Origin: Opitutaceae bacterium
GTDB lineage: Bacteria; Verrucomicrobiota; Verrucomicrobiia; Opitutales; Opitutaceae
Direction: 5' to 3'
DNA: 64,000 nt
Assembly: GCA_014879845.1 (NCBI GenBank)
Contig: JACSRI010000137.1
Coordinates: forward strand, 1-64,000
Position 1 is the stretch's first letter, and each line of letters opens with the position of its first letter. This document shows positions 9,117 through 31,583 of this stretch, piece by piece. The position numbers and the translations under genes were made by a program. The notes below the pieces were generated by a model. The model made no database searches, was not told where the DNA came from, and worked only from the letters and a program-made list of their open reading frames with translations.

Positions 9117-9784
9117 ACCGCGTGGGACGATCCAGTCTTGGCGCGCTGGCGGCGGCCGGGCTGACGCTCGGTTGCCTGTATTGGATCGACCAGAGGCGCG
9201 CCGGCGAGGCGGGCGCGCTTCGGAGCGAGATAGCCGGATTGCGTGCTCGAGCCGCGGCGCGGGAGCCGGTAGCTCCCCCGGCGATGGCGGCGACTCCTGG
9301 GGGCGGCGTGTCGGTCGCGACGCCGGCACCGACGGCGGCGCCGGCAACGCCGCCACCTCCGCTGCCGATCTACCGTAACGAGGGCAGGGCGACAGCGCGC
9401 GCCGCCCTGCAGACGCTGGCCTGGGCCAGCGATCGCGGCGATGTGACGACGGTGCAGGCCATGTTGGTTTTCGACGATGCAGCGCGGACCAAGGCCGAAC
9501 AGTTGTTCTCCTCCATGCCACCAGAGGCTCGTGGCTCGTGGCGCAGCGTCGACGACATGGCGGCGTCGCTGATCACCATGTCCGGGATGCAGGCGCCATT
9601 TCCCGCCGCGGATGTGCTTGAGCACATCGAACTCGAGCCATTGAGCCCGGAGCGTGCGCGGCTGCACTTGCGGGGAACCCGGCGCGATGGATTGGAGTTT
9701 CAGCGCACGAGCACGGGCTGGAGCTACGTCATCTCGGAGGTGATGGTGGACCGGTACATCCAGCAACAGGCTGCGGGGCGTTGA
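9113..9784 (+). CDS. Membrane-anchored paralogue of the sigma factor's C-terminal half
   Basis: The 223-residue protein has an N-terminal membrane segment (SLGALAAAGLTLGCLYWI), a short coiled coil (LRSEIAGLRARAA), a Pro/Ala/Thr linker and a C-terminal domain. That domain matches the tail of the preceding sigma factor: TLAWASDRGD vs TFAWACDIAD, LFSSMPPEAR vs ELARMPEEVR, FQRTSTGWSYVIS vs YQRTEAGWKYVIP. It seems to be a duplicated sensor half without a sigma domain. The ATG overlaps the upstream stop (ATGA), so translation is probably coupled. It may heterodimerise with, or compete against, the sigma factor's tail. I know no named family for the domain. Confidence 0.8.
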   Translation: MNRVGRSSLGALAAAGLTLGCLYWIDQRRAGEAGALRSEIAGLRARAAAREPVAPPAMAATPGGGVSVATPAPTAAPATPPPPLPIYRNEGRATARAALQTLAWASDRGDVTTVQAMLVFDDAARTKAEQLFSSMPPEARGSWRSVDDMAASLITMSGMQAPFPAADVLEHIELEPLSPERARLHLRGTRRDGLEFQRTSTGWSYVISEVMVDRYIQQQAAGR

Positions 9785-9834
9785 GCCATGGTGCGGCTCC
9801 ACCCGTCGGAGGGGCGCAGGCTCGTGCCAGTCGA

Positions 9835-11235
9835 CTACGCGTGCGCGCGGCGCTCGAGGCGCGTGCAGAGGAAGCCGTAGAGGGCGATGACCACGAAGCA
9901 GGCGGCGGGCAGGAAGAACGAGACGCGCACGGATTCGAGGTGTTGGCCGAACAGGGTCATGCCGCTGCCGTCGATCGCCTTGCCCTGCCAGAGCGGCATG
10001 AAGGCGCCGCCGACGATGGCGAAGATCAGGCCGGCCGAGCCGAGCTTGGCGTGGTTCGGCGTCAGGCCGTCCAGTGCGATGCCGTAGATCGTCGGGAACA
10101 TGAGCGACATGCAGCCCGACACGCCGATCAGGCAATAGAGCCCTGGCATGCCCTGGATGAAGATCGCCGCGAGGGTCAGCAGCAGGCCGCCGACGGCGAG
10201 GATGCCGAGCAGCAGTCCGGCGTTGAGGAAGCGCAGCAGGAACGTGCAGATGAACCGGCTGGTGAGGAACAGCACCATCGCGGCGATGTTGTAGTTCTGC
10301 GCCTGTGCGGCGGTGAGGCCGACGAGTGTCATCCCGTAGTGGATGATGAAGGTCCAGCACATGATCTGGGCCCCGACGTAGAACGTCTGCGCCACCACGC
10401 CTCCGATGTAGTGGAAATTGGCCAGGCGCCGGAAGAGTTCGCCGAGACCGATCGGCTCGTCCTCGTGCCCGGTGTCAGGCATCCTGGATACGGCGAAGAT
10501 CACCAGCACCAGGAGCACGACCACGGCGATCGCGGCGTAGGGGATCATGACGACGTTGAGGTCGTGCTTCACCATCTCGAGGTGGTTTTCCGGGCTGGTC
10601 TTTGCGAACGTCTCGAGTGACTGGATGAGCAGGCCGTCGACCTGGCTCGGCAGCATGTCCTTGTATTCCGGATGCGCGGCGATCTCGCTGTCGCGGAACT
10701 GGCCGACCTGCAGGTTCGGCAGGATGAACAGGCTCGCGACGAGCATGCCGGTGAGCGAGCCGATGGGATTGAAGGCCTGGGCGAGATTGAGCCGGCGGGT
10801 CGCGGTCTGGGGCGAGCCCATGGAGAGGATGTAGGGGTTCGCGCTCGTCTCGAGGAAGGCCAGGCCGAAGGTGAGCACATAGAAGCCGAGCAGGAAGATG
10901 TTGAAGTTCATCTGCGTGCTCGCGGGGATGGTCAGCAGCGCGCCCGCGGCGTAGAGGCCGAGCCCGATCATGATGCCCGCCTTGTAGGAGAGCTTGCGGA
11001 TGACCAGCGCGGCCGGGATCGCCATCGTGGCGTAGCCGCCGTAGAAGGCCCACTGCACCAGACTGCTCTGCGCATTGCTGATGAGGAAGATCTCGCGGAA
11101 CGCGCGCACCAGCGGGTTGGTGATATCGTTGGCGAAACCCCAAAGCGCGAACAGCGTCGTCACGACGATGAACGCATAGAGAAATCGGGCGGGGACGACG
11201 CGGTGATCTGTGTCGGGGGAGTGGGGCGAGGACAT
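9835..11235 (-). CDS. fucP: FucP-type L-fucose:H+ symporter (MFS)
   Basis: The 466-residue protein has about 12 membrane helices and features of the FHS/FucP family: ALWGFANDITNPLVRAF in helix 1 (with the conserved Asn-Asp), QWAFYGGYATMAIPAALV, LAFLETSANPYIL and NLAQAFNPIGSL. FucP imports L-fucose with protons across the inner membrane; related members take galactose, glucose or other sugars, so the exact substrate is inferred from context. It lies 49 bases downstream of the aldo/keto reductase gene on the same strand, almost certainly in one operon, next to a divergent AraC regulator. Confidence 0.85.
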   Translation of the reverse strand: MSSPHSPDTDHRVVPARFLYAFIVVTTLFALWGFANDITNPLVRAFREIFLISNAQSSLVQWAFYGGYATMAIPAALVIRKLSYKAGIMIGLGLYAAGALLTIPASTQMNFNIFLLGFYVLTFGLAFLETSANPYILSMGSPQTATRRLNLAQAFNPIGSLTGMLVASLFILPNLQVGQFRDSEIAAHPEYKDMLPSQVDGLLIQSLETFAKTSPENHLEMVKHDLNVVMIPYAAIAVVVLLVLVIFAVSRMPDTGHEDEPIGLGELFRRLANFHYIGGVVAQTFYVGAQIMCWTFIIHYGMTLVGLTAAQAQNYNIAAMVLFLTSRFICTFLLRFLNAGLLLGILAVGGLLLTLAAIFIQGMPGLYCLIGVSGCMSLMFPTIYGIALDGLTPNHAKLGSAGLIFAIVGGAFMPLWQGKAIDGSGMTLFGQHLESVRVSFFLPAACFVVIALYGFLCTRLERRAHA

Positions 11236-16916: not shown

Positions 16917-19106
16917 TCAGTGCGCGAGGCGCTTGTTCAGCTCCGTCAGGATCGTCTTGGCCGCTGCGGGGATGACCGTGCCGGGGCCGAAGACGGCGGT
17001 GGCACCGTTCTTCAGGAGGAAGTCGTAATCCTGCGCGGGGATGACTCCGCCGCAGATGACCATGATGTCCTCGCGGCCGAGGCGCTTGAGTTCCTCGACC
17101 AGCTTGGGCAGCAGCGTCTTGTGGCCGGCGGCGAGCGAGCTCATGCCGACCACGTGCACGTCGTTCTCCACGGCCTGCTTCGCGGTCTCCTCGGGCGTCT
17201 GGAAGAGCGGCCCGATGTCGACGTCGAATCCAAGGTCCGCATACGCCGTGGCGACGACCTTCGCGCCGCGGTCGTGGCCGTCCTGGCCCATCTTCGCGAT
17301 CATGATGCGCGGACGGCGACCTTCCTTCTTCGCGAAGTCGTCGGTCAGTTTCCGGACCTCGCCGATCTGGTTGTCTTTGCCGAATTCTGCGGAGTACACG
17401 CCGGTGATGGAACGGATGACAGCCTTGTGGCGGCCGTAGATGACTTCAAGCGCGTCGGAGATCTCGCCGAGCGACGCGCGCACCTGGGCGGCGTTCACGG
17501 CGAGTTCGAGCAGGTTGCCGGTGCCGTTCTTCGCGGCCTCGGTGAGGGCGGCGAGCGCGGCCTGGACCTTCGTCCCGTCGCGTTCGGCCCGGAGCTTGGC
17601 GAGGCGCTTGATCTGCGACTCGCGCACGGCGGTGTTGTCCACCTCGAGGATCTCCAGCGGGTCCTCCTTCGCGAGGCGGTACTTGTTCACGCCGACGATC
17701 GTCTCGCGGCCGCTGTCGATGCGCGCCTGGCGGCGGGCGGCCGCCTCCTCGATGCGCATCTTGGGCAGGCCGCTCTCGAGCGCCTTGGCCATGCCGCCGA
17801 GCTTTTCCACTTCCTCGATGTGGGCCCAGGCGCGGCGCATGAGCGCGTCGGTGAGGGCCTCGACGTAGTAGCTGCCGCCCCACGGGTCGATGACCTTGCA
17901 GATGCCGGTCTCGTCCTGGAGGTAGAGCTGCGTGTTGCGCGCGATGCGGGCGGAAAAGTCCGTCGGCAGTGCGATCGCCTCGTCGAGCGCATTGGTGTGG
18001 AGCGACTGCGTGTGACCCAGCGCTGAGGCCATCGCCTCGATGCAGGTGCGCGTCACGTTGTTGAACGGATCCTGCTCGGTCAGCGACCAGCCGGAGGTCT
18101 GCGAGTGCGTGCGCAGCGCCATCGACTTCGTCGACTTCGGGCCGAACTGCTTCACGATCTTCGCCCAGAGCAGGCGGGCGGCGCGCATCTTCGCCACCTC
18201 CATGAAGTAGTTTTTCCCGATGGCCCAGAAGAAGGAGAGGCGCGGCGCGAAGTCATCGACGCCGAGGCCGGCCTTCGTGCCGGTGCGCAAGTACTCGAGA
18301 CCGTCGGCGAGCGTGTAGGCGAGCTCGAGGTCGGCCGTGGCTCCCGCCTCCTGCATGTGGTAGCCGGAGATCGAGATGGAGTTGAACTTCGGCATCTTCT
18401 GCGAGGTGAAGGCGAAGATGTCGCCGATGATCCTCATCGAGGGCGCGGGCGGATAGATGTAGGTGTTCCGCACCATGTACTCCTTGAGGATGTCGTTCTG
18501 GATCGTGCCGGCGAGTTCCTCGAGCTTGGCGCCCTGCTCGAGGGCGGCCACGATGTAGAACGCGAGCACGGGCAGCACGGCGCCGTTCATCGTCATCGAG
18601 ACGGAGACCTTGTTCAGCGGGATCCGGCTGAAAAGGATCTCCATGTCGAGGATCGAGTCGATCGCGACACCGGCCTTGCCCACGTCGCCGACCACGCGGG
18701 GGTGGTCGGAGTCGTAGCCGCGGTGGGTGGCGAGGTCGAAGGCGACCGAGAGGCCCTTCTGGCCGGCCGCGAGGTTGCGGCGGTAGAAGGCGTTGGACTC
18801 CTCGGCGGTGGAGAAGCCCGCGTACTGGCGCACCGTCCACGGCTGCGTCACGTACATCGTAGCGTAGGGGCCACGCAGATACGGGGCGATGCCGGCGGTG
18901 TAGCCGGTGTGCTCGGCACCGGCGATGTCCTCGGCGGTGTAGAGCGGCTTGACGGCGATCTGCTCCATCGTCTGCCAGACGAGGTCGTCCAGCTTCTTGC
19001 CGGTCTGGGCCTCGAGCTGCGCACGCCATTCGGCGTAGGTGGGCTGCTTGGCCGCAGCCGCGGCGGGCTGGAAGGGCAGGGTGGTGAAATCAACGGTGCG
19101 GCTCAT
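16917..19106 (-). CDS. mutB: Methylmalonyl-CoA mutase, large (catalytic) subunit
   Basis: The 729-residue protein has an N-terminal acyl-CoA mutase barrel ([70 protein letters not shown]). The C-terminal B12-binding domain has DGHDRG, with the cobalt-ligating His near residue 609, followed by the SL and GG motifs ([19 protein letters not shown]). It interconverts succinyl-CoA and (R)-methylmalonyl-CoA using adenosylcobalamin in the cytoplasm. Its start overlaps the stop of the small-subunit gene by 4 bases, so the two are co-translated. Length is normal. Confidence 0.97.
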
Positions 19107-21277
19107 TTCAGGACTCCGATCTTCGTGAGGAGGCGGGTGAGCATCTCCAGGCTGTTGCTGGCGACATTGACGAATTCATCGACGCCGGCGGCGCGCCAGG
19201 CGTCTTCAACGGGTTTATCCTTCGGTGCGGCGCCGGCCACCATGACGTGGATACCGGCGTCCTTGGCCTTGAGGGCGCGGGCGAGCGGCTCGACCGCGGT
19301 GACGTAGGTGTCGTCCATCGAAGTGATCACGACGATGCGGGCGCCCGAGGCGAGGGCCGCGGCGGCGGCTTCGTCGGCGTCCTTGAAGTCGCGATCCGCG
19401 GCGACCTTGAAGCCGCCGACCTCGAAGAAGCCCGTCGTCCAGTCGGCGCGGAGCCGGTAGAGGCGGGACGGGCCGATGTTGGCCTGGAAGAGCAGGGGCG
19501 TCTTCCCGGCGGCGGTGGCGGCGGCCGAGGCCTCGCGAAGGCGCTCGAACGGCTGCGCGGCGCGGTGGATGCACAGCGGCGTGGCCTTGGGATGCTCGGC
19601 ATCGCCGGAGCGCATCGCGCGGCAGATCTCGCCGAGCGTGGCGCCCTTCGACACGGCCTCGATTGCGGCCTCGAGGGCGGAGCGCGGTTGCGACTCGAGC
19701 AGCACGGACAGGCTGTTGAGGACAAACGCGTCCTCGTCGGCGTCGTGCTTCGTGCGGTAGTCGGCGACCTGCTTCGCGCGCTTCTGCTGGATCGCGGCGT
19801 AGTCGAGCGGCTTGCGATCGGGCTGGGCTTCGCGGGCGTTGGCGTACTGGTTCACGCCGACGATGACCGTGCGGCGCTTGGCCACGCCGTCGGCGCGGGC
19901 CTTGGCGGCGTCGGCCACCATCTTCTGCGGCGAACCGGCGAGCAGGGCCTTGGTCATGCCACCCTGCTTCTCGATTTCCTGGAAGAGCGCCCAGGCGCGG
20001 GTGGCGACCTCGTTCGTCAGCCACTCGACGTAGTGCGAACCGCCGGCGGGATCGACGACCTTCGTGAGGTCGCACTCCTCGGCGAGGATCGTCTGCGTAT
20101 TGCGCGCGATGCGACGGGAGAACTCGTCGGGCAGGCGCGTGACCTCGTCATACGGGCTGACGTGGAGCGAATCGCAGCCGCCGACCACGGCCGAGAACGC
20201 CTCGGTCGTGGTGCGCAGCATGTTCGTGTGCGCGTCGTAGACGGTCTTGTTGAACGTCGCGGTGCGCACGTGCAGGTGCATCGCGCGCGCCTGCTCGTCG
20301 CCGCCGAGCGCGGCCACGGCCTGCGACCAGACCTGGCGGGCGGCGCGGAACTTCGCCACCTCCATGAAGAAGTTCGAGCCGGCGCTGAGCGAGAAGCGCA
20401 CGTGACGCGTGGCCTCGTTGATCGAGACGCCGTGCTTCTGCAGTTCGCGCAGGTACTCGACGCCCGTCGCGAGGACGAAGGCGAGTTCCTGGACCGCGGT
20501 GGCGCCGGCGTCGGCGTAGGGCGTGCCCTGCACCGCGACGGTCTGGAGGTTTTTCGCCTGCTTGGAGGCGTAGAGTGTGAGCCCGGCCATCTCCTGCCAG
20601 GCGCGCTCGAGCGAGATGGGCAGGTCGCCCTTCCAGGCGAGCATGCCGAGTGGGTCGATCTCGATGCAACCGCGCAGGTCCTTCGGGGCCACGCCGCGTT
20701 TCTTCGCGAGGGCGAGGAGCAGGGCGGCAGCCGGCAGGGCGGAGGCGCCGGCGCGCAGGTAGACGGAGACCAGCGGCAACTGGATGTTGGCAAACGCCTT
20801 CTCCATGTCGGCGAGCGTGGCGAGCGAGAGGCCGCAGGCGCCGACGTCGCCCGGCTGGGCCTGGTCGGGGTCGCGTCCGGCGAGCGTCGCCAGATCGAGC
20901 GGGATGTTCAGCTCGGTCTGCCCGCGCTCCAGGTCGTGGAGGGCGGCGGCGTTGAACTCCTCGGGCGTGGCGAGCGGCAGTTCCTGGGAGATCTCCCAGC
21001 CGTGGCCGACCTGGCCGGCGGCAGTTGCGCCGCGCAGGCGGCTGGCCGTGCCCGGCAGCTCGGCGAGCTGGGGCAGGTGGGCGACGTCCTCCTTGCGGTA
21101 GATCGGCTGGAGCTCGATGCCTTCGGGCGTGCGCGTGATGAGCTTCTTTTCAAAGGGTGCACCCTTGAGGAGAGCTTCAGCGGCGGCGCGCCACTCGTCA
21201 TAGGTCGGCAGCGGAAACTCCGCGAGCAGGCGCTCGGGTTTTCCGGCCGGGTTGGTTTCGTGCGTGGGCACTTTCAT
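19103..21277 (-). CDS. mutA: Methylmalonyl-CoA mutase, small subunit
   Basis: The 724-residue protein is homologous along its length to the large subunit. It keeps the barrel ([49 protein letters not shown]) and a B12-like domain, but the DxHxxG cobalt-ligating motif is absent; the equivalent strand reads [16 protein letters not shown]. This is known for MutA, which is structural rather than catalytic. It is the first gene of a two-gene operon, divergent from the epimerase and sodium-pump run. A TAGAAT hexamer stands 15 bases before the ATG. Confidence 0.93.
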
Positions 21278-21995: not shown

Positions 21996-23552
21996 ATGCC
22001 CATTGATCCCGCATTGCTCAAGGAACTCGAGGCGCGTCGCAAGAAGGCCGCGCTCGGGGGAGGAAAAGACAAGATCGCCAAGCGCCACGAGAAGGGCCAG
22101 CTGACGGCCCGCGACCGTCTGGCCGCGCTCTTTGATGCCGACACGTTCATCGAGTTCGGCATGCACGCCGCGCACGCCTGCCATGCCTTCGGCATGGAGG
22201 ACAAGGAGATGCCGGCCGACGGCGTCGTGACCGGCATCGGCTATGTCGCCGGCCGCCCCGTGGCAGCCTACTCGCACGACTTCACGGTCGGCGGTGGCGC
22301 GCTCGGGCGCATCCACGCCGCCAAGGTCTGCGACCTCATGGACTATGCCATGAAGGCGGGCATGCCCATCGTTGGGATCAACGACTCCGGTGGCGCGCGC
22401 ATCCAGGAGGGCGTGGACTCGCTCTCCGGCTATGGCCAGATCTTCTTCCGCAACGTCGCGGCCTCCGGCCTCGTGCCCCAGATCGCGATCATCGCCGGCC
22501 CGTGCGCCGGTGGCGCCGCCTACTCGCCCGCGCTCACCGACTTCCTCATCATGGTGCGCAACGCGGCAACGAACATGTTCATCTGCGGCCCCGAGGTGAT
22601 CAAAGCCGCCACCGGTGAGACGGCCAAGCTCGAGCAGTTCGCCACCGCGGACGCGCACGCTTCGGTCAGCGGCAACGTCCACCTCATCGCGAACGACGAC
22701 AAGCACGCCGTCCAGCTCGCGCAGACGCTGATGAGCTACCTGCCGTCGAACAACCTCGACGATCCGCCGCACCATCCCGCCGAGCACCTCAGCCTCGCCC
22801 CGATCCTCAAGCTCAACGAGCTGATGCCCGCCGACCCGAAGATGCCCTTCGACGTGAAGGACATGATCGGTGCGCTGGTCGACTCCGGTTCGTTCTTCGA
22901 GATCATGGCCTCGTTCGCGCCCAACCTCGTGGTTGGATTCGCGCGCATCGACGGCATCGTGGTCGGCATCGTGGCCAACCAGCCCAAGGTCAAGGCCGGC
23001 TGCCTCGACATCGACGCCTCGGACAAGGGCGCGCGCTTCATCCGCACGTGCAATGTCTACGGCATCCCGATCGTCACGCTCGTCGACGTCCCCGGCTACA
23101 TGCCCGGCCTCGCCCAGGAGCGCGGCGGCATCATCCGCCACGGCGCGAAGCTGCTCTTCGCCTACGCCGCGGCCACCGTGCCGAAGATCACGGTGATCCT
23201 GCGCAAGGCCTACGGCGGCGCCTACCTCGCCATGTGCTCGAGCGACCTCGGCGCCGATCTCGTCTACGCCTGGCCGACGGCCGAGATCGCGGTCATGGGC
23301 GCGGAAGGCGCGGTGAAGGTGATCTTCGGCAAGGAACTCAAGGAGGCGCCCGACGCCGACAAGAAGCTGGCCGAGCTCATCTCACAGTACCGCGAGGAGT
23401 TCGCCTCGCCGTATCAGGCCGCCAAGAACGCGCTCATCACCGACGTGATCGAGCCGTCGCAGACGCGCGGCATGGTCTCGCTCGGCCTGCGCTCGCTCCT
23501 GACCAAGCGCGAGACCCGCCCGCCAAAGAAGCACGGCAACATGCCGCTCTGA
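21996..23552 (+). CDS. mmdA: Methylmalonyl-CoA decarboxylase/carboxyltransferase alpha subunit
   Basis: The 518-residue protein has two crotonase-like carboxyltransferase halves. Oxyanion-hole and CoA motifs include GINDSGGARIQEGV, GPCAGGAAYSPALTDF, VDVPGYMPGLAQERGGIIRHGAKLL and AYGGAYLAMCSSDLGAD. It moves the carboxyl group of (S)-methylmalonyl-CoA to biotin on the carrier protein encoded two genes later. The context of OadB/OadG-like membrane subunits favours a sodium-pumping decarboxylase over a propionyl-CoA carboxylase, and no biotin carboxylase gene is present here. CAGGAGA at 21981-21987 is a good ribosome-binding site. Confidence 0.93.
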   Translation: MPIDPALLKELEARRKKAALGGGKDKIAKRHEKGQLTARDRLAALFDADTFIEFGMHAAHACHAFGMEDKEMPADGVVTGIGYVAGRPVAAYSHDFTVGGGALGRIHAAKVCDLMDYAMKAGMPIVGINDSGGARIQEGVDSLSGYGQIFFRNVAASGLVPQIAIIAGPCAGGAAYSPALTDFLIMVRNAATNMFICGPEVIKAATGETAKLEQFATADAHASVSGNVHLIANDDKHAVQLAQTLMSYLPSNNLDDPPHHPAEHLSLAPILKLNELMPADPKMPFDVKDMIGALVDSGSFFEIMASFAPNLVVGFARIDGIVVGIVANQPKVKAGCLDIDASDKGARFIRTCNVYGIPIVTLVDVPGYMPGLAQERGGIIRHGAKLLFAYAAATVPKITVILRKAYGGAYLAMCSSDLGADLVYAWPTAEIAVMGAEGAVKVIFGKELKEAPDADKKLAELISQYREEFASPYQAAKNALITDVIEPSQTRGMVSLGLRSLLTKRETRPPKKHGNMPL

Positions 23553-23586: not shown

Positions 23587-23949
23587 ATGCACCTGAACTG
23601 GCAAGGATTCCTCGAGTCACTCGAACACCTCACCGGGTTCGTCATCGTCATGATCGCGCTCGGCGGGTTGTGGGGGCTCACGGCCCTCATGGCCAAGCTG
23701 GTTGCGTTGATTGAAAAGCCCAAGGTGCCGGCGACGGTGGCTCCCGCCGCCGCGCCCGCGCCGGCCGCGCCGGTCGCCGCTGTCGCGGCGGCCGCCGGTG
23801 GTCCGCCCGAGGACGACCTCGTCGTCGTGGCTGCGGCCGTCGCGACGATGCTCGGCGCCCGCCACCGCGTGGTCGCCGTCAAGCCCGTCTCCTCGTCGTG
23901 GGGCCAGCAGGGCCGCCGCGACATCCATGCCTCGCACCGTATCCGTTGA
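23587..23949 (+). CDS. Sodium-pump decarboxylase gamma/delta-type membrane subunit
   Basis: The 120-residue protein has one N-terminal membrane segment (TGFVIVMIALGGLWGLTALMAKLVALI), an Ala/Pro linker, and a C-terminal domain with DLVVVAAAVATMLG ending WGQQGRRDIHASHRIR. The C-terminal arrangement fits the MmdD/OadG family, which assembles the decarboxylase complex and contacts the beta subunit. It lies between alpha and the biotin carrier, as in known mmd clusters. A homologous but distinct protein is encoded at 27264. Confidence 0.82.
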   Translation: MHLNWQGFLESLEHLTGFVIVMIALGGLWGLTALMAKLVALIEKPKVPATVAPAAAPAPAAPVAAVAAAAGGPPEDDLVVVAAAVATMLGARHRVVAVKPVSSSWGQQGRRDIHASHRIR

Positions 23950-23991: not shown

Positions 23992-24402
23992 ATGAAGAAG
24001 ACCCTTCGCATTTCGTTCAATGGGAAGACCTACGAGGTCGTCGCCGAACTCCTGGGCGAGGACGATGCCGCGCCGTCGCCGGCGCGCGCCTCCGCTCCCG
24101 CTCCTGTCGCTGTCGCCGCCGCGGCGGCCGCACCCGCTGCGGCCGCGCCCAAGCCGGCGGCCGCTCCCGCCGCGCCCGCCGCCGGTGGTGCCGGGGCGAT
24201 CCCGAGCCCGCTCGCGGGCAAGGTCGTCTCGATCGACGTCAAGGTCGGCCAGCAGGTCGCCGCCGGTGCCCAGCTCGCCACGCTCGAGGCGATGAAGATG
24301 AACACGCTCATCTACGCGCCGCAGGCTGGCACGGTCGCCTCGGTGCATGCCAATCCCGGCGACGCCGTGGAGGAAGGCCAGCCCCTGCTCACGCTTTCCT
24401 AA
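23992..24402 (+). CDS. mmdC: Biotin carboxyl carrier subunit
   Basis: The 136-residue protein starts with a short conserved segment (KTLRISFNGKTYEVVAELLGE), then a long Ala/Pro linker. A C-terminal biotinyl domain has the biotinylation site EAMKMN; the central Lys is modified. GAIPSPLAGKVVSIDVKVGQQV and GTVASVHANPGDAVEEGQPLLTLS are standard. It carries carboxybiotin from the alpha subunit to the membrane beta subunit. It is the only biotin carrier in the cluster. Confidence 0.95.
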   Translation: MKKTLRISFNGKTYEVVAELLGEDDAAPSPARASAPAPVAVAAAAAAPAAAAPKPAAAPAAPAAGGAGAIPSPLAGKVVSIDVKVGQQVAAGAQLATLEAMKMNTLIYAPQAGTVASVHANPGDAVEEGQPLLTLS

Positions 24403-24414
24403 CGGTCGTCGGAC

Positions 24415-25563
24415 ATGGAACTCATCAATCGCATCATCGAAACCACCGGTTTCCTGCACATCACCTGGCAGATGGTGGTGATGTGGGGCGTGGTGGCCAT
24501 CCTGCTCTACCTCGCGGTGGCGAAGGGGTTCGAGCCGCTGCTGCTCGTGCCGATCGCGATGGGCGCGCTCATCGCGAACATCCCGACGCACGGCGTGCTC
24601 GAGGGCATGGAGGGCACGCCCTTCAAGCCCGACGGCACCGGCGGCCTCTACTACTATCTGTATTCAGGCATTCGATTCGAGCTGTTCCCGCCGATCATCT
24701 TCCTCGGCGTGGGCGCGTTGACGGACTTCGGCCCGCTCATCGCCAACCCGCGCACGCTCCTGCTCGGCGGCGCGGCCCAGCTCGGCGTGTTTGCCACGAT
24801 GTTCACGGCGATCCTGATCGGATTCAGCGCACCGGAGGCCGCCTCGATCGGCATCATCGGCGGCGCGGACGGCCCGACCTCGATCTTCCTCGCCAACAAG
24901 CTCGCCCCGCACCTGCTCGGCCCGATCGCGGTGGCGGCCTACACCTACATGTCGCTCGTGCCGCTCATCCAGCCCCCGATCATGCGGCTGCTTACGACCG
25001 ACGCGGAGCGCAAGATCCGCATGAAGACGCTGCGCAAGGTGTCCAAGACGGAGAAGCTGGTCTTCGCCGTCATGGTCATGGTGGCCTGCACCCTGCTCGT
25101 GCCCGATGCCGCGGCGCTGCTCTTCATGCTCTTCCTCGGCAACTTCATCCGCGAGTGCGGAGTGGCCGACCGGTTGAACAAGGCCGCGCAAAACGAGATC
25201 ATCAACATCACCACGATCTTCCTCGGCACGAGCGTGGGTGTGACGATGGGCGGCGAGTCCTTCCTGCGGCCGCAGACCCTCGGCATCATCGTGATGGGCG
25301 TGGTCGCATTCGGCATCTCCACCGCGGGTGGCGTGCTCATGGGCAAGATCATGAACAAGCTGAGCAAGAACCCGGTGAATCCGCTCATCGGCTCGGCCGG
25401 TGTGAGCGCGGTGCCGATGGCGGCCCGCGTCAGCCACAACGTCGGCCAGGAATACGACCCGCACAACTACCTGCTCATGCACGCCATGGGTCCGAACGTG
25501 GCGGGTGTGATCGGCACGGCCCTCGTGGCTGGCTACTACATCGCCGCCCTCGGCGGGCGGTGA
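24415..25563 (+). CDS. mmdB: Sodium-pumping decarboxylase beta subunit 1 (OadB/MmdB family)
   Basis: The 382-residue polytopic protein. IGIIGGADGPTSIFLANKLAP contains the conserved Asp region used for sodium, and NEIINITTIFLGTSVGVTMGGESFLRPQTLG is the second conserved segment. It decarboxylates carboxybiotin and exports Na+ across the inner membrane. Its position 12 bases after the biotin carrier gene makes it the partner of alpha and carrier. A second beta paralogue lies at 28928. Confidence 0.95.
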   Translation: MELINRIIETTGFLHITWQMVVMWGVVAILLYLAVAKGFEPLLLVPIAMGALIANIPTHGVLEGMEGTPFKPDGTGGLYYYLYSGIRFELFPPIIFLGVGALTDFGPLIANPRTLLLGGAAQLGVFATMFTAILIGFSAPEAASIGIIGGADGPTSIFLANKLAPHLLGPIAVAAYTYMSLVPLIQPPIMRLLTTDAERKIRMKTLRKVSKTEKLVFAVMVMVACTLLVPDAAALLFMLFLGNFIRECGVADRLNKAAQNEIINITTIFLGTSVGVTMGGESFLRPQTLGIIVMGVVAFGISTAGGVLMGKIMNKLSKNPVNPLIGSAGVSAVPMAARVSHNVGQEYDPHNYLLMHAMGPNVAGVIGTALVAGYYIAALGGR

Positions 25564-25571
25564 GCCATCCG

Positions 25572-25659
25572 GGGTAGGGAGGCCTCGCCGAGGCCTCCGC
25601 GAGTGAGACCCGCAGGCACGGGAACCTCACGCGGACGCCTCGGCGAGGCGACCCTACCC
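25572..25659. repeat. GGTAGGG/CCTCGCCGAGG inverted repeat
   Basis: Arms at 25572-25607 and 25625-25659: GGGTAGGGAGGCCTCGCCGA is mirrored by TCGGCGAGGCGACCCTACCC, with few mismatches and a 17-base centre. Each arm also holds a CCTCGCCGAGG palindrome. It fills the gap between beta subunit 1 and the CoA-transferase. A diverged copy is at 1088-1158. Confidence 0.85.
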
Positions 25660-25691
25660 TGAATCGAACCCACTCCCTTTCATCCTTTCTC

Positions 25692-27185
25692 ATGAAACTT
25701 CCTTTCCCGACACTCACGGCCGACGAAGCGGCGGCCCTCATCCAGAACGGCCAGACGCTCGGCTGCAGCGGTTTCACGCCGGCCGGTGCCGCCAAGGTCA
25801 TCCCCAAGGCGCTCGCGGCGCGCGCGCGCGCCGAGCACGAGGCCGGCCGCCCGTTCAAGGTCGCGATCGTGACCGGCGCCTCGACCGGCGACTCGCTCGA
25901 CGGCGAGCTCGCCCGCGCCGACGCCATCTCCTGGCGCACGCCCTACCAAAGCAACAAGTCGCTGCGCGACAGTATCAACAAGGGCAAGACGCGCTTCTTC
26001 GACATGCACCTCTCGCACGTGCAGCAGCAGGTGCGGGCGGGTTTCCTGGGCCAGATGGACTGGGCCATCGTCGAGGCCTGCGCCGTCAGCGCCGACGGCC
26101 AGATCGTGCTCACGACCTCGGTCGGCGCCTCAAACACCTTTCTGCGCTGCGCGAAGAAGGTGCTGATCGAGCTCAACCACTTCCACTCGCCGCGCCTGCG
26201 CGGTTTCCACGACATCTACGAGCCGCAGGATCCGCCCTATCGCCAGCCCGTGCCGATCATCCGGCCGTCCGACCACATCGGCCAGCCCACGGTGAAGATC
26301 GATCCGTCGAAGATCGCCGGCATCGTCGAGAGCAACATGGCCGACGAGACCGGTGGTTTCGAGCCGGCCGACGCGGTGACGAACAAGATCGGCGAGAACG
26401 TCGCCAACTTCCTCGCCGGTGAGATCCGCGCCGGACGCGTGCCGCGCGAGTTTCTCCCGCTGCAGTCCGGCGTGGGCAACATCGCCAACGCCGTGCTCGG
26501 CGCCCTCGGCGCCAATCCCGAGATCCCCGCCTTCGAGATGTACTCCGAGGTGATTCAGGACTCGGTCGTCGACCTCATCCGCTCGGGCAAGATCCGCTTC
26601 GCCACGGGCACGTCGCTGACCATCGGCAAGGAGAAGCTCCAGGCCTTCTACGACGACCTCGAGTTCTTCCGGCCGCGCGTGCTCCTGCGCCCGCAGGAGA
26701 TCACGAACAACCCCGAGATCGTGCGCCGCCTCGGCATCATCACCGTGAATACGGCGATCGAGGTCGATATCTTCGGCAACGTGAATTCGACGCACGTCAT
26801 GGGCAGCAACCTCATGAACGGCATCGGCGGCTCGGGCGACTTCACGCGCAACGCCTACATCTCCGTCTTCACCTGCCCGTCGTCGGCCAAGGGCGGCAAG
26901 ATCAGCACGATCGTCCCGCTCGTCTCGCACATGGACCACAGCGAGCACTCCGTGCACGTGGTCGTGACCGAGCAGGGCGTCGCGGACCTGCGCGGCAAGG
27001 ATCCGAACGAGCGCGCACGCCTGATCGTGCAGCATTGCGCGCATCCGGAGTACCGCGACGAGCTCCTGCGCTACTTTGAGATGGCGAAGGACGGCCACTC
27101 GCCGCAAACCCTCGCCAACGCGTTCCTCATGCACCAGCAGTTCCTGCAGACCGGGGACATGCGCGGTGTGAAGTGGACGCCCTGA
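25692..27185 (+). CDS. Succinate/propionate CoA-transferase (Cat1/ScpC/AarC family)
   Basis: The 497-residue protein belongs to the acetyl-CoA hydrolase/transferase family. Likely catalytic glutamate in FEMYSEVIQDSVVDL near residue 290; other family segments are IVESNMADETGGFEPAD, GSNLMNGIGGSGDFTRNAY and HVVVTEQGVADLRGKDP. It probably moves CoA from propionyl-CoA (or acetyl-CoA) to succinate, closing the propionate cycle with the mutase, epimerase and decarboxylase upstream. Acetyl-CoA:succinate activity cannot be excluded from sequence alone. Confidence 0.9.
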   Translation: MKLPFPTLTADEAAALIQNGQTLGCSGFTPAGAAKVIPKALAARARAEHEAGRPFKVAIVTGASTGDSLDGELARADAISWRTPYQSNKSLRDSINKGKTRFFDMHLSHVQQQVRAGFLGQMDWAIVEACAVSADGQIVLTTSVGASNTFLRCAKKVLIELNHFHSPRLRGFHDIYEPQDPPYRQPVPIIRPSDHIGQPTVKIDPSKIAGIVESNMADETGGFEPADAVTNKIGENVANFLAGEIRAGRVPREFLPLQSGVGNIANAVLGALGANPEIPAFEMYSEVIQDSVVDLIRSGKIRFATGTSLTIGKEKLQAFYDDLEFFRPRVLLRPQEITNNPEIVRRLGIITVNTAIEVDIFGNVNSTHVMGSNLMNGIGGSGDFTRNAYISVFTCPSSAKGGKISTIVPLVSHMDHSEHSVHVVVTEQGVADLRGKDPNERARLIVQHCAHPEYRDELLRYFEMAKDGHSPQTLANAFLMHQQFLQTGDMRGVKWTP

Positions 27186-27263
27186 CCGAAGGCTGCGCTC
27201 GGCAGGCCTTCCGAGGTGGGCCTGTCGGGCATCGAGACACACCTCAAACCTACCCCAACTCCC

Positions 27264-27689
27264 ATGATACCCCTCGTGGCCATCGCGCTCGTGTCGCCGG
27301 TGCTGGCGGCGGCCGGGGGCGTCGCGGCGGAGACGCCCCAGGTCTCGTTCCAAACGGCGATGCTCCTGGTCGTGGTGGTGGTGCTCGCCTTCCTCGGCAA
27401 GAAACTGGCCGATCTCGGCCGCGCCGTGCGCGACCTCGAGGAACGCCTGGCCGCGCGCACGCCGGCCGGCGTGTCCGAGCCGGGCGCCAACCCGGTCCAG
27501 CCGGTGGCCCATGCGCCCGGCGAGCCGGTCGACGTCGACACCGAAACCGCGGTCGTGATCTCCGCCACCGTCGCCGCCCTCTGGGGACCGACGGCTCGCA
27601 TCGTCTCCGTCGGGGAGCCGAAGGGCGGCGTGCGTCTCTGGGCGCTCGAGGGGCGCCGTCAGATCTTCGCTTCGCACAAGATTCGCTGA
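27264..27689 (+). CDS. Second gamma/delta-type decarboxylase subunit
   Basis: The 141-residue protein has a hydrophobic N-terminus that could act as a signal (LVAIALVSPVLAAAGGVAA), a membrane segment (FQTAMLLVVVVVLAFLGKKLA) and a short coiled coil. The C-terminal domain ends GRRQIFASHKIR, parallel to GRRDIHASHRIR of the subunit at 23587. The start at 27264 excludes an upstream in-frame ATG because the hydrophobic region begins here. It opens the second pump module. Its partner is probably beta subunit 2 at 28928. Confidence 0.75.
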   Translation: MIPLVAIALVSPVLAAAGGVAAETPQVSFQTAMLLVVVVVLAFLGKKLADLGRAVRDLEERLAARTPAGVSEPGANPVQPVAHAPGEPVDVDTETAVVISATVAALWGPTARIVSVGEPKGGVRLWALEGRRQIFASHKIR

Positions 27690-27731
27690 GCAGGCTCGAC
27701 CCGGACCGGTCCCTCCCATCCATTTTCGCGC

Positions 27732-28769
27732 ATGCACTCGCTGACGTTTCTCTGGGCGCTTTTCTGGGTTCTCTTTGTCGTCGTCTCGGCGGTGGACCTG
27801 TTCGTCGTCACGCACCGCAAGACCACGATCGACGTCAAGGTCGCCCTGCGCTGGACGGCGCTGTGGGTGAGCCTCGCGCTCGGCTTCGGTGCGGCGACCT
27901 GGGTGCTGCACCCCGGCGGGCATGAGATCGCGACGGCCTACATCGCGGGCTACCTCACGGAGTATTCGCTCTCCGTCGACAACCTCTTCGTCTTCATCCT
28001 CATCTTCTCGCTCATGGGCGTGCAGCCGGTCGCCCAGCCCAAGCTGATCAAGCTCGGCATCTACCTCTCCATCGTCCTGCGCATCGCCTTCATCCTCTTC
28101 GGCATCGCGCTGGTGGAGAAGTTCCACGTGCTCATCTATGCGTTCGGCGCGCTGCTCATCTGGACGGCGTGGAAGATGGTCGCGGCTGACGAGGACGAGC
28201 ACGTGCATCCGGAGAAGAACATCTTGGCGCGGATGGCCTCGAAGATCCTGCCGATCCACCCGGAGCCGCAGGAGACGCGCAAGCTCTTCACGCGCTGGAA
28301 CGGGAAGCTGCACATCACGCCGCTCTTCCTGGTGTTCCTCGTCATCGGCTCGACCGACGTGCTCTTCGCCATCGACTCGATCCCGGCGATCATGGGCATC
28401 AGCCAGGACCCGTTTGTCGTCATCACCTCGAACATCTTCGCCGTGCTCGGGCTCAACTCCCTGTTCTTCGCCATCCGCGGGATCATGGGCCTGTTCAAGT
28501 TCCTCAAGCACGGGGTGAGCGTCATCCTCTTCTTCATCGGCGCGAAGATGGTCGTGCCGGGCCTCGGGCACCTGCTCGAGATCGCCGGGCTCGAGGGCGC
28601 CGGTCATCCGATGGTGCTCTCCGAGGAGTGGTTCAAGCACCACGTCTCCGTCTCGCTGCTCGTCATCGCCGCCGTGCTCGCCGTCTCGATCGTGCTCTCC
28701 GTCTGGCACGACCGCTATGAGCGGCAGCTCGCCGCGGCGAAGGCCCCTGTCCCCACGGATACTCCATGA
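27732..28769 (+). CDS. TerC/Alx-family integral membrane protein
   Basis: The 345-residue protein has about eight to nine membrane helices. TerC signatures include EYSLSVDNLFVFILIFS and GSTDVLFAIDSIPAIMGISQDPFVVITSNIFAVLGLNSLFFA, with acidic residues inside the helices (SVDN, STDV, AIDS). TerC proteins are linked to tellurite resistance, Mn2+ export and metal loading of exported enzymes. Its place between two sodium-pump subunit genes, overlapping the next gene by 4 bases, is unusual and hints at a role in ion balance or in loading the pump. Confidence 0.93.
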   Translation: MHSLTFLWALFWVLFVVVSAVDLFVVTHRKTTIDVKVALRWTALWVSLALGFGAATWVLHPGGHEIATAYIAGYLTEYSLSVDNLFVFILIFSLMGVQPVAQPKLIKLGIYLSIVLRIAFILFGIALVEKFHVLIYAFGALLIWTAWKMVAADEDEHVHPEKNILARMASKILPIHPEPQETRKLFTRWNGKLHITPLFLVFLVIGSTDVLFAIDSIPAIMGISQDPFVVITSNIFAVLGLNSLFFAIRGIMGLFKFLKHGVSVILFFIGAKMVVPGLGHLLEIAGLEGAGHPMVLSEEWFKHHVSVSLLVIAAVLAVSIVLSVWHDRYERQLAAAKAPVPTDTP

Positions 28770-28912
28770 GTCAACTGACCTTCGGTCTCACCATGCTCGT
28801 CGTCGGCATGGGCGGCACACTGCTCACGCTGTGGCTGCTCACGCTGCTCATCCGCGGCCTGACCGCCATCTTCCCGCCGGACCACGGCGGGCCCGAGGGC
28901 AAGAAGGACTGA
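28766..28912 (+). CDS. Mini OadG-like single-span subunit (48 aa)
   Basis: Starts MSQLTFGLTMLVVGMGGTLL, with one membrane helix continuing through LTLWLLTLLI and a short polar tail ending GPEGKKD. The GLTxLVVGMG pattern at the N-terminus is characteristic of OadG-type decarboxylase gamma subunits; the usual soluble C-terminal part is missing. ATG overlaps the TerC stop (ATGA), and beta subunit 2 starts 15 bases after its stop, preceded by GGAGG at 28914-28918. It is easily missed by gene finders because of its size. Confidence 0.8.
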   Translation: MSQLTFGLTMLVVGMGGTLLTLWLLTLLIRGLTAIFPPDHGGPEGKKD

Positions 28913-28927
28913 CGGAGGGATCACGCC

Positions 28928-30097
28928 ATGCTCGACGCCATCCTCGAAGCGCTCAAGGGCCTGGGAGCCGGTGCCCAGTTTCTCTATACACACGGCGGGC
29001 CGAACATCGTGATGCTCCTGATTGCGGGCGTCATGTTCTACCTCGCCGTCGCCAAGGACGTGGAGCCGCTCCTGCTCCTGCCCATCGGCTTCGGCTGCCT
29101 GCTGTCCAACCTGCCGCTGAGCGAGCTCATGGGCCACGACGGCGTGCTGCGCACGCTTTACGACATGGGCATCGGCAACGAGCTGTTCCCGCTGCTCATC
29201 TTCGTGGGCATCGGCTCGATGACCGACTTCACCCCGCTGCTGGCGGAGCCCAAGCTTCTGCTCTTCGGCGCGGCGGGCCAGCTCGGCATCTTCCTCACGC
29301 TCCTGCTCGCGCTGGCGCTGGGATTCTCCAAGGAGGCCGCCGTATCCGTGGCGGCCATCGGCGCATGCGACGGCCCGACGGTGATCTACGTCTCCAACAT
29401 GTTCGCCGACCTCGGCAAGATCGACACCGCCATGGTCGGCGCGCTCGCCGTGGCGGCGTATTCCTACATGGCGCTCGTGCCGATCATCCAGCCGCCGATC
29501 ATGCGGCTGCTCACGACGAAGAAAGAGCGCGAGACCAAGATGCCGCCGGTGAGGGGCAAGGTCTCGAAGACCGCGCTCATCGCGTTCCCGATCATCGTCA
29601 CCGCCATCACCGGCATCATCGCCCCGAAGGGTCTGCCGCTCATGGGCATGATCATGCTGGGCAACTTCATGAAGGTCTCCGGGGCCGTCACGCGCCTGTG
29701 CAAGGCGAGCGAGAACGAGATCGCCAACATCTCCACGCTCTTCCTCGGGCTGGCCATCGGCGGCACGATGGCGGGCGGCGAGTTCCTGAAGATGCAGACG
29801 CTGATGGTCTTCGGCCTGGGCTTGGTCGCGATCGTGACCGACACCGTCGGCGGCGTGCTCCTCGGCAAGCTCTGGTACTACCTCTCGGGCGGAAAGGTGA
29901 ACCCGCTGGTCGGCGCGGCCGGCATCTCCGCCTACCCGATGGCGGCGCGGCTCGTGCAGACCGAGGGGCAGAAGGCCAACAAGCACAACTTCCTGCTCAT
30001 GCACGCCATGGGCGCCAACACGGGCGGGCAGATCGGGTCGGTCATGGCCGCGGCCATCATGCTGGCGGTGCTCAAGGGGCTCGGCGTGATTCCGTGA
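28928..30097 (+). CDS. Sodium-pumping decarboxylase beta subunit 2 (OadB family)
   Basis: The 389-residue polytopic paralogue of beta subunit 1. Matching segments are MFYLAVAKDVEPLLLLPIGFG, VGIGSMTDFTPL, GACDGPTVIYVSNMFA (Asp kept) and NEIANISTLFLGLAIGGTMAGGEFLKMQTL. In the last segment FLKMQTL replaces FLRPQTL of subunit 1. It should couple decarboxylation of a carboxybiotin carrier to Na+ export, but the second module has no alpha or carrier gene, so it must share those at 21996 and 23992 or use others outside the window. Confidence 0.92.
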   Translation: MLDAILEALKGLGAGAQFLYTHGGPNIVMLLIAGVMFYLAVAKDVEPLLLLPIGFGCLLSNLPLSELMGHDGVLRTLYDMGIGNELFPLLIFVGIGSMTDFTPLLAEPKLLLFGAAGQLGIFLTLLLALALGFSKEAAVSVAAIGACDGPTVIYVSNMFADLGKIDTAMVGALAVAAYSYMALVPIIQPPIMRLLTTKKERETKMPPVRGKVSKTALIAFPIIVTAITGIIAPKGLPLMGMIMLGNFMKVSGAVTRLCKASENEIANISTLFLGLAIGGTMAGGEFLKMQTLMVFGLGLVAIVTDTVGGVLLGKLWYYLSGGKVNPLVGAAGISAYPMAARLVQTEGQKANKHNFLLMHAMGANTGGQIGSVMAAAIMLAVLKGLGVIP

Positions 30098-30218: not shown

Positions 30219-31583
30219 ATGTCGTTCCTCCTCGCCTCCAGCACGCACACCGCCATGGCCGCGGTGCCGGCGTGGTTGATCATTCCGTTCGGCTTGCTGC
30301 TCCTGCTCATCGCGGCGATGTCGCTCACCCCGCCGCGGGTGAAGCATTTCTGGGAGCACTACTACCCGCATATCGCGATCGGGATGGGCGTGGCGGTGGC
30401 GGGATATTTCGTCTTCGGCCTGCACGCCGGCGGCGTGGTGGTGCACACGCTGCACGAGTATTTCTCGTTCATCTGCCTGATCGGGTCGCTCTATATCGTG
30501 GCTGGGGGCATCCACATCCGGGTTAAGGGCGAAGCCACGCCGACGCAGAATGCGATCTTCCTCTTCGTGGGCGCGGTCGTGGCCAACCACATCGGCACGA
30601 CCGGTGCCTCGATGGTGATGATCCGCCCGTGGATCCGGACGAACAAGATCCGGATCAGCGCCTACCACATCGTCTTCTTCATCTTCGTCGTCTCGAACTG
30701 CGGCGGTGCGCTCACCCCGATCGGCGACCCGCCGCTGTTCATCGGTTTCCTGCGCGGGGTGCCGTTCTTCTGGCTGATGGAGCACGTGCTCCTGCAGTGG
30801 CTGTGCACCATCCTGGCGATCATCGGTGTGTTCTGGCTGATCGACCGCCACCACTACGCCAAGGTCCCGCGCCGCGTGCAGGAACAGATCGAGGAGCACG
30901 ACAGCTGGCGGTTCGACGGCGGGATCAACGCATTCTTCCTCCTGGTGATCGTGGGTGCGGTCTTCCTCTCGGAGGTGCCGGTGGTCGGGCCGCTCTCGGA
31001 CCGGTTCCTCCTGCGCGAGTGGCTCATGATCGGCGCCGCCGTCGCCTCGTACCGGATGACCAACAAGACGGTGCACGCGGAGAACCAGTTCACCTTCGGC
31101 CCGATCAAGGAGGTGGCCTTCCTTTTTGCGGGGATCTTCATGACAATGATGCCCGCGCTGGGCTACATCAACCAGCACGGCGGAGAGTTGAGGGTCAACC
31201 AGCCGATGCAGTACTACCTCACCTCCGGATCCCTGTCGGCCGTGCTCGACAACGCGCCGACCTACGCGACTTTCCTGCAGCTGGCCGAGACGGTGGCGCA
31301 GGCGGAGTCGCCCGAGGCGTTTCCCGAGGGTGCCGACGAGCGTGCGGAGGTGCGCGTGTTGCTGCATCATCCGCGCTACTCGCAATTCGTGGTCGCGATC
31401 AGCCTGGGCGCCGTGTTCTTCGGCGCGATGACCTACATCGGCAACGGTCCGAACTTCATGGTCAAGGCCATCGCCGAAGCCGCCGGTGTGCGCACGCCAA
31501 CCTTCGTCGGTTACATCGTGCGCTACAGCCTGCCCATCCTGCTGCCGATCCTGCTGGCGAGCGGATGGTTGTTTTTGCGCTGA
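30219..31583 (+). CDS. NhaD-type Na+/H+ antiporter (IT superfamily)
   Basis: The 454-residue protein has about 11-12 membrane helices. Typical segments are HEYFSFICLIGSLYIVAGGIHIRV, VGAVVANHIGTTGASMVMIRPWIR, FFIFVVSNCGGALTPIGDPPLFIGFLRGVPF and ISLGAVFFGAMTYIGNGPNFMVKAI. This family includes NhaD and citrate-type transporters; the NCGG..TPIGDPPL motif favours NhaD. It could recycle the sodium exported by the decarboxylases into a proton gradient. It lies 121 bases after beta subunit 2 in the same orientation. Confidence 0.85.
   Translation: MSFLLASSTHTAMAAVPAWLIIPFGLLLLLIAAMSLTPPRVKHFWEHYYPHIAIGMGVAVAGYFVFGLHAGGVVVHTLHEYFSFICLIGSLYIVAGGIHIRVKGEATPTQNAIFLFVGAVVANHIGTTGASMVMIRPWIRTNKIRISAYHIVFFIFVVSNCGGALTPIGDPPLFIGFLRGVPFFWLMEHVLLQWLCTILAIIGVFWLIDRHHYAKVPRRVQEQIEEHDSWRFDGGINAFFLLVIVGAVFLSEVPVVGPLSDRFLLREWLMIGAAVASYRMTNKTVHAENQFTFGPIKEVAFLFAGIFMTMMPALGYINQHGGELRVNQPMQYYLTSGSLSAVLDNAPTYATFLQLAETVAQAESPEAFPEGADERAEVRVLLHHPRYSQFVVAISLGAVFFGAMTYIGNGPNFMVKAIAEAAGVRTPTFVGYIVRYSLPILLPILLASGWLFLR

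Follow-up and report, generated by a model that had tools for sequence, protein, structure and literature searches.

In the textbook view, biotin-dependent Na+-translocating decarboxylases are primary pumps in which each head has a single membrane sector. What, then, is a second set of membrane subunits doing behind the genes of such a pump in an Opitutaceae bacterium? The window, by which we mean the whole 64,000-nucleotide stretch analyzed here (contig JACSRI010000137.1 of assembly GCA_014879845.1, positions 1 to 64,000; source genome G000, with other genomes and loci labeled G### and L###), carries a same-strand run encoding an MmdA-type carboxyltransferase (alpha), a delta subunit (delta1), a biotin carrier, a beta subunit (beta1), a CoA-transferase, and, at its end, a delta-like protein (delta2), TerC, a 48-residue OadG-like protein (mini-OadG), and a second beta subunit (beta2) (Table 1). 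An earlier reading of this DNA, here called the original prediction, had described the last four genes; open reading frames and profile matches confirm that they are real and lie where it placed them, behind the CoA-transferase gene, with a 4-base TerC/mini-OadG overlap at 28766 to 28769. We regard it as probable that delta2, TerC, mini-OadG, and beta2 constitute a complete membrane sector (sector B) of a biotin-dependent Na+-translocating methylmalonyl-CoA decarboxylase that would use the same MmdA alpha and carrier as beta1 (sector A), with TerC as an accessory. Gene content, conserved gene order, and retained catalytic residues are seen directly in the sequence; head sharing, the division of labor between mini-OadG and delta2, and the role of TerC are inferred. 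One head facing two sectors, one of them with TerC and a split gamma subunit, would offer a natural setting in which to examine how modular the coupling in these pumps is, and would point to a specific task of TerC proteins other than secretion.

A profile search of the source assembly (5.44 Mb, 277 contigs, 99.4% complete) found two OAD_beta genes, both within the window, and a single full-length Carboxyl_trans match, the window alpha; the other two Carboxyl_trans matches are short and AccD/AccA-like. No separate alpha/carrier pair for the beta2 set, which the original prediction had named as refuting evidence, was found in the 277 contigs. Two sectors on one head is therefore the simplest reading: the genome encodes a single MmdA alpha and a single free-standing carrier for two betas, so that both sectors apparently use the same head, in support of the earlier proposal.

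Relatives were collected by a named genome scan, which gave 23 loci, and by a search of 252 same-family genomes for beta2 and for TerC. Counts are per distinct genome (duplicate labels: L088 = G534, L091 = G613, L094 = G508, L095 = G578, L096 = G691, L097 = G253, L098 = G531, L101 = G506, L104 = G507, and L105 = G692). Mini-OadG and beta2 occur together in 25 genomes, 21 of them close (G000, G253, G506, G507, G508, G531, G534, G548, G575, G578, G594, G613, G691, G692, G706, G698, G699, G700, G701, G702, and G320) and 4 more distant (G703, G704, G705, and G217). From the 23 loci, L106 (contig cut), L107, L108, and L110 were left out of the beta2 set as lying outside the clade. A search for beta2 orthologues through 132 genomes of the order was abandoned in favor of these two, since those of its hits that were retrieved as loci resembled beta1 more closely.

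An MmdA alpha and a carrier lie upstream of the set in 9 of the 21 close genomes (the window, G253, G506, G507, G508, G534, G594, G613, and G706). No other beta intervenes in seven of these eight relatives; G534 has a MadB-like beta there. Contigs of G575 and G578 break inside what is apparently the same operon. The complete, one-contig genome of IMCC26134 (G253) has one MmdA alpha, and its one beta at an E value of 1e−30 is beta2. Because relatives have the set directly behind alpha and carrier, and because it provides the sole beta in IMCC26134, delta2-TerC-mini-OadG-beta2 is, judged by gene order, the native membrane sector, and in the window beta1 and the CoA-transferase sit between the carrier and it. 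The claim of a set lacking its own alpha and carrier does not hold in these relatives. The order also comes apart in an informative way. G698 and G699 have alpha-carrier-delta2 at one locus and TerC-mini-OadG-beta2 at another, while in G706 (L089), whose beta2 belongs to the same clade, the two blocks are contiguous. Compared with G706, the operon of G698 and G699 is thus split precisely at the delta2/TerC junction, which suggests that TerC-mini-OadG-beta2 moves as a cassette. In G691 the genes are in three places: alpha-carrier, delta-beta1, and delta2-TerC-mini-OadG-beta2.

In the beta tree, window beta2 falls within Verrucomicrobiota betas (an 18-row clade, support of 100), and beta1 groups with Opitutales MmdB-type betas (support of 98). 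Beta2 aligns well to Salmonella OadB (6iva), on which we mapped the residues given as essential for Na+ binding and decarboxylation in the available part of PMC7274780. The mapping covered 26 beta2-clade rows from 22 genomes, a selection of loci; L106, L107, and L108, labeled beta2 by best score but outside the clade, were excluded from the counts. All 26 rows keep E40, D203, Y229, R304, N373, G377, S382, R389, N412, and S419, and 25 keep N311, which is His in G548. The window protein has all of E40, D203, Y229, R304, N311, N373, G377, S382, and N412. The sole clade-wide change found at the Na+-binding residues is an Ala-Cys directly before D203 (26/26 rows) versus Gly-Ala in beta1 (18/18 rows), so that the tip of the beta2 sodium site is, in this alignment, altered clade-wide. 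The suggestion of another ion preference finds no support, as all residues known to matter for Na+ binding are kept. R304 and N311 have been lost from MadB-like betas (8/8 and 7/8 rows, respectively). The Clostridiales OadB-type betas at L107 and L108 also lack R304 and N311, with sodium-site residues retained.

The small subunits of sector B differ from a conventional gamma or delta. Mini-OadG falls below the PF04277 (OAD_gamma) cutoff (19.3 versus 27 bits) and belongs instead to NF040909, OadG-related small transporter subunit, a family that is named only; the name is used in no paper found by our literature search. It aligns weakly to the OadG helix (6iva_B residues 30 to 59, E value of 0.08) and immediately precedes beta2 in 29 of 30 loci (gap of −8 to +27; some genomes are counted twice), the exception being L104, with a frameshifted beta2. 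Delta2 has no match to PF04277 up to an E value of 0.1, and its tail matches that of delta1 (phmmer, 30 bits). The 27-bit cutoff is reached by five of six deltas beside beta1 (window, L137, L138, L142, and L160; not L139) and by none of 11 delta2 proteins of beta2 sets (window, L088, L089, L094, L095, L096, L097, L125, L104, L161, and L162). The tail W..EGRR.I(F/Y).S(H/R)..R is common to nearly all deltas; L098 as translated lacks it, and a few have variant last residues. According to the parts of the two sources at hand, the gamma subunit of oxaloacetate decarboxylase (OAD) binds beta through its helix and alpha through its tail (PMC7274780), and GcdD consists of a helix, an Ala/Pro linker, and a C-terminal region (PMC7145394). 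Because OAD gamma and GcdD have both helix and tail parts, mini-OadG and delta2 look as if they divide the work of one delta, mini-OadG as the putative beta-binding helix and delta2 as the putative head-binding tail.

Among the 252 family genomes, beta2 was found in 14 (at least 73% identity) and its TerC in 15 (at least 68%; next best TerC, 47%). Eleven genomes have both, and the genes are adjacent in all 11, so that TerC is conserved next to this OadB in relatives, the opposite of what the original prediction had named as refuting it; 3 have beta2 only (G534, G531, and G548), and 4 have TerC only (Fisher 11/3/4/234, P = 9e−14, a test that ignores kinship). The link may have a single origin in this clade. 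Among the 21 close genomes, a TerC of the same type lies directly upstream of mini-OadG-beta2 in 15, another TerC flanks the pair in 2, and 4 have none; in the 4 distant genomes TerC is beside beta2 in none. Window TerC is in the same clade as the TerCs at the relatives' beta2 loci. In G256 (L142), which has no beta2, the same type follows beta1 and groups with the TerCs of L094, L101, and L104 at 80/85, and the TerCs that flank mini-OadG-beta2 in G320 and G702 belong to other subfamilies: each genome has a YkoY-type TerC there, and G702 has a YjbE-type one as well. These two arrangements suggest that the link between TerC and the pump arose more than once. The residues D83, N84, D215, and S216 are invariant across the aligned operon and housekeeping TerCs. 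In Bacillus, TerC proteins (MeeF/MeeY) act in Mn2+ efflux and in the metalation of exported and membrane proteins with the Sec machinery, according to the part of PMC10550928 available. Since the acidic motifs of the family are intact in the operon TerC, we favor a functional role over a dead scaffold; most likely this TerC is an accessory of sector B that exports metal or acts as a metal chaperone. The notion of a TerC-dependent form of the pump agrees with these neighborhoods, and the close beta2 genomes with no TerC beside speak against it. It is an unlikely further step that TerC is integral to the beta2 sector, with decarboxylation energy, through the Na+ gradient or direct contact, driving or gating metal export; the pump would then be wired to metal homeostasis, and cells could fit the one head with either the TerC-linked sector or the plain one.

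In the mechanism that we propose, MmdA would transfer the carboxyl group of methylmalonyl-CoA to the biotin of the carrier. The tail of delta2 would hold the head, mini-OadG would hold the beta2 trimer, and beta2 would decarboxylate carboxybiotin while exporting Na+; carboxybiotin from MmdA could be decarboxylated at either beta. TerC would serve sector B as a metal exporter or chaperone that depends on the pump or helps it to mature. The window alpha matches TIGR01117 (mmdA) over its full length below the cutoff. Methylmalonyl-CoA is assigned as its substrate from context, namely, the divergent methylmalonyl-CoA mutase subunit genes upstream of the alpha run (16917 to 21277) and the CoA-transferase, and not from the profile score. 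The EAMKM of the carrier is presumably its biotinylation motif. Several Opitutaceae have alpha-delta-carrier-MadB-like beta-delta-beta1 in one operon (L137 to L142); G534 has the same arrangement except that mini-OadG and beta2 stand where beta1 would be, and G700 has such an operon plus TerC-mini-OadG-beta2 elsewhere. Alternative sectors on one head therefore seem to be a recurring Opitutaceae pattern, of which the window is one case. L136 and L160 likewise have two betas behind one MmdA alpha, the first MadB-like and the other MmdB-type (or beta2).

We take the methylmalonyl-CoA decarboxylase MmdABCDE of Veillonella, together with the oxaloacetate decarboxylase OadABG, to be the closest known system. 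The window shares with both a biotin carboxyltransferase, a carrier, an OadB-family beta, a small membrane gamma/delta subunit, and a conserved Na+ site; it differs in having two betas per alpha, a helix-only mini-OadG with a separate delta2, and TerC within the set. Glutaconyl-CoA decarboxylase of Clostridium symbiosum also has one part duplicated, and its GcdD has the architecture of window delta1, but it doubles the carrier (GcdC1/GcdC2) where the window doubles beta, and the available part of its description mentions no TerC (PMC7145394). Window TerC belongs to the TerC/Alx family (TIGR03718; MeeF/MeeY) and shares its acidic motifs SVDN and DSIPA (PMC10550928, in part); known members act in Mn2+ efflux or metalation, and in the literature searched, available in part, none is tied to a decarboxylase pump. 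We found nothing in the same partly available literature that links TerC to an OadB-type pump or reports two betas for one alpha.

Several observations weigh against the proposed two-sector pump. TerC is absent beside beta2 in 4 of the 21 close genomes (G534, G531, G548, and G701, the last with a 16-bit remnant), and three family genomes (G532, G543, and G612) carry this TerC with no beta detected, so that neither always needs the other. In G531 and G548 the genes upstream of beta2 encode an OadA-type alpha and a carrier, so that beta2 is not tied to MmdA. The distant mini-OadG-beta2 pairs have neither alpha nor TerC beside them. The delta at the alpha locus of G320 is OadG-type (45.7 bits) though its beta2 has a mini-OadG, which counters a strict split. 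Finally, head sharing in the source genome is read from gene counts, and an assembly of 277 contigs could miss a gene. In G532 and G543 a second TerC stands divergent to the operon-type one. Adjacent, divergent TerC genes that differ in type lie at L145 (8145 to 10396) and L146 (about 8350 to 10352), with no decarboxylase beta near.

The first two of these observations would be expected if TerC were an operon neighbor serving general metal homeostasis, unrelated to the pump. We consider this possible but doubtful, given the adjacency in all 11 family genomes with both genes and in G706, G698, G699, and G700, the TerC behind beta1 in G256, and the other-subfamily TerCs flanking the pair in G320 and G702.

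The OadA-type genes raise a different alternative, that sector B mainly serves another carboxyltransferase and that oxaloacetate, not methylmalonyl-CoA, is the substrate. The source genome has two PYC_OADA matches. One, at the edge of contig C141, is a C-terminal fragment read as pyruvate carboxylase; the other is a 506-residue OadA/5S-like carboxyltransferase without a carrier domain on C126 (L045, 607 to 2127), which would borrow the window carrier. The latter matches pyruvate carboxylase subunit B above the cutoff (568 versus 402 bits) and 5S (NF008984) below it (478 versus 827 bits), and OadA-type genes adjoin the set downstream in G253 and G578 and upstream in G531 and G548. However, the seven relatives with MmdA alpha and carrier upstream and no beta between argue for MmdA, the C126 contig has no OAD_beta, and the C126 gene might just as well encode the 5S half of a transcarboxylase, which its product could form with MmdA and the free carrier. 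We therefore consider a C126-served sector improbable. The gene after it reads, judged from sequence, as a cobalamin adenosyltransferase.

Still less probable is that TerC-mini-OadG-beta2 has given up carboxybiotin and works as an ion transporter by itself. The triple does stand alone in G698, G699, and G700, and mini-OadG-beta2 lacks an adjacent alpha in G701, G702, G320, G703, G704, G705, and G217, but the residues essential for decarboxylation are kept even in lone copies. A full-length MmdA/PccB-like alpha is present elsewhere in 9 of these 10 genomes, G217 having no full-length MmdA-type alpha anywhere, and at the alpha-carrier loci of G698, G699, and G320 the retrieved DNA contains no beta. 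The lone pairs (L102, L103, L109, and L112) are from metagenome-assembled genomes labeled Thermodesulfobacteriota or Myxococcota and from G217, of the window's phylum. Two betas per alpha might also mean that sector B is a redundant duplicate decaying beside beta1, which is very hard to credit with intact frames, all catalytic residues kept, mostly 75 to 85% identity to close orthologues, and beta2 as the only beta in IMCC26134.

Table 1. Features of the decarboxylase gene run in the window
Feature	Position	Strand	Basis
MmdA-type alpha, carboxyltransferase, putative shared head	21996..23552	+	PF01039 598 bits; TIGR01117 741 bits (cutoff 998.8)
Delta1, OadG-type helix and head-binding tail	23587..23949	+	PF04277 32.2 bits (cutoff 27)
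Biotin carrier	23992..24402	+	PF00364 65 bits; EAMKM motif
Beta1, membrane sector A	24415..25563	+	TIGR01109 498 bits; clusters with Opitutales MmdB-type betas
Long hairpin, dispersed-repeat copy at beta1/CoA-transferase junction	25568..25664	.	Fold z −6.8; repeat matches in own genome
CoA-transferase, YgfH/succinate type	25692..27185	+	TIGR03458 744 bits, NF053666 804 bits, both above cutoff
Delta2, 141 residues, differing transmembrane helix, conserved tail W..EGRR.IF.SH..R	27264..27689	+	Tail comparison with other deltas
TerC, Alx type, 345 residues	27732..28769	+	PF03741 150 bits (cutoff 27.8); TIGR03718 317 bits (cutoff 246)
Mini-OadG (OadG_rel_small), 48 residues, helix only	28766..28912	+	NF040909 53.5 bits (cutoff 25)
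Beta2, OadB-type, membrane sector B, 389 residues	28928..30097	+	PF03977 456 bits (cutoff 31.6); TIGR01109 389 bits (cutoff 190.6)

Delta2 is taken to start at the ATG at 27264; an alternative GTG upstream at 27216 is possible. Immediately 3′ of beta2 is a gene for a CitMHS_2 family transporter (30219 to 31583; PF16980, 481 bits); none of the relatives searched has one beside beta2, and no solved relative of it was found by sequence. A promoter/terminator scan gave no promoter-like sites and 10 terminator-like sites versus a mean of 4.7 in shuffles, from which we conclude nothing. An Rfam scan of 14000 to 40000 found no riboswitch before TerC; its two matches, to miRNA families and below threshold, fall on the hairpin repeat. 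This repeat borders the beta1 stretch, which looks inserted, and has 43 matches in its own genome, with both strands of some copies counted.

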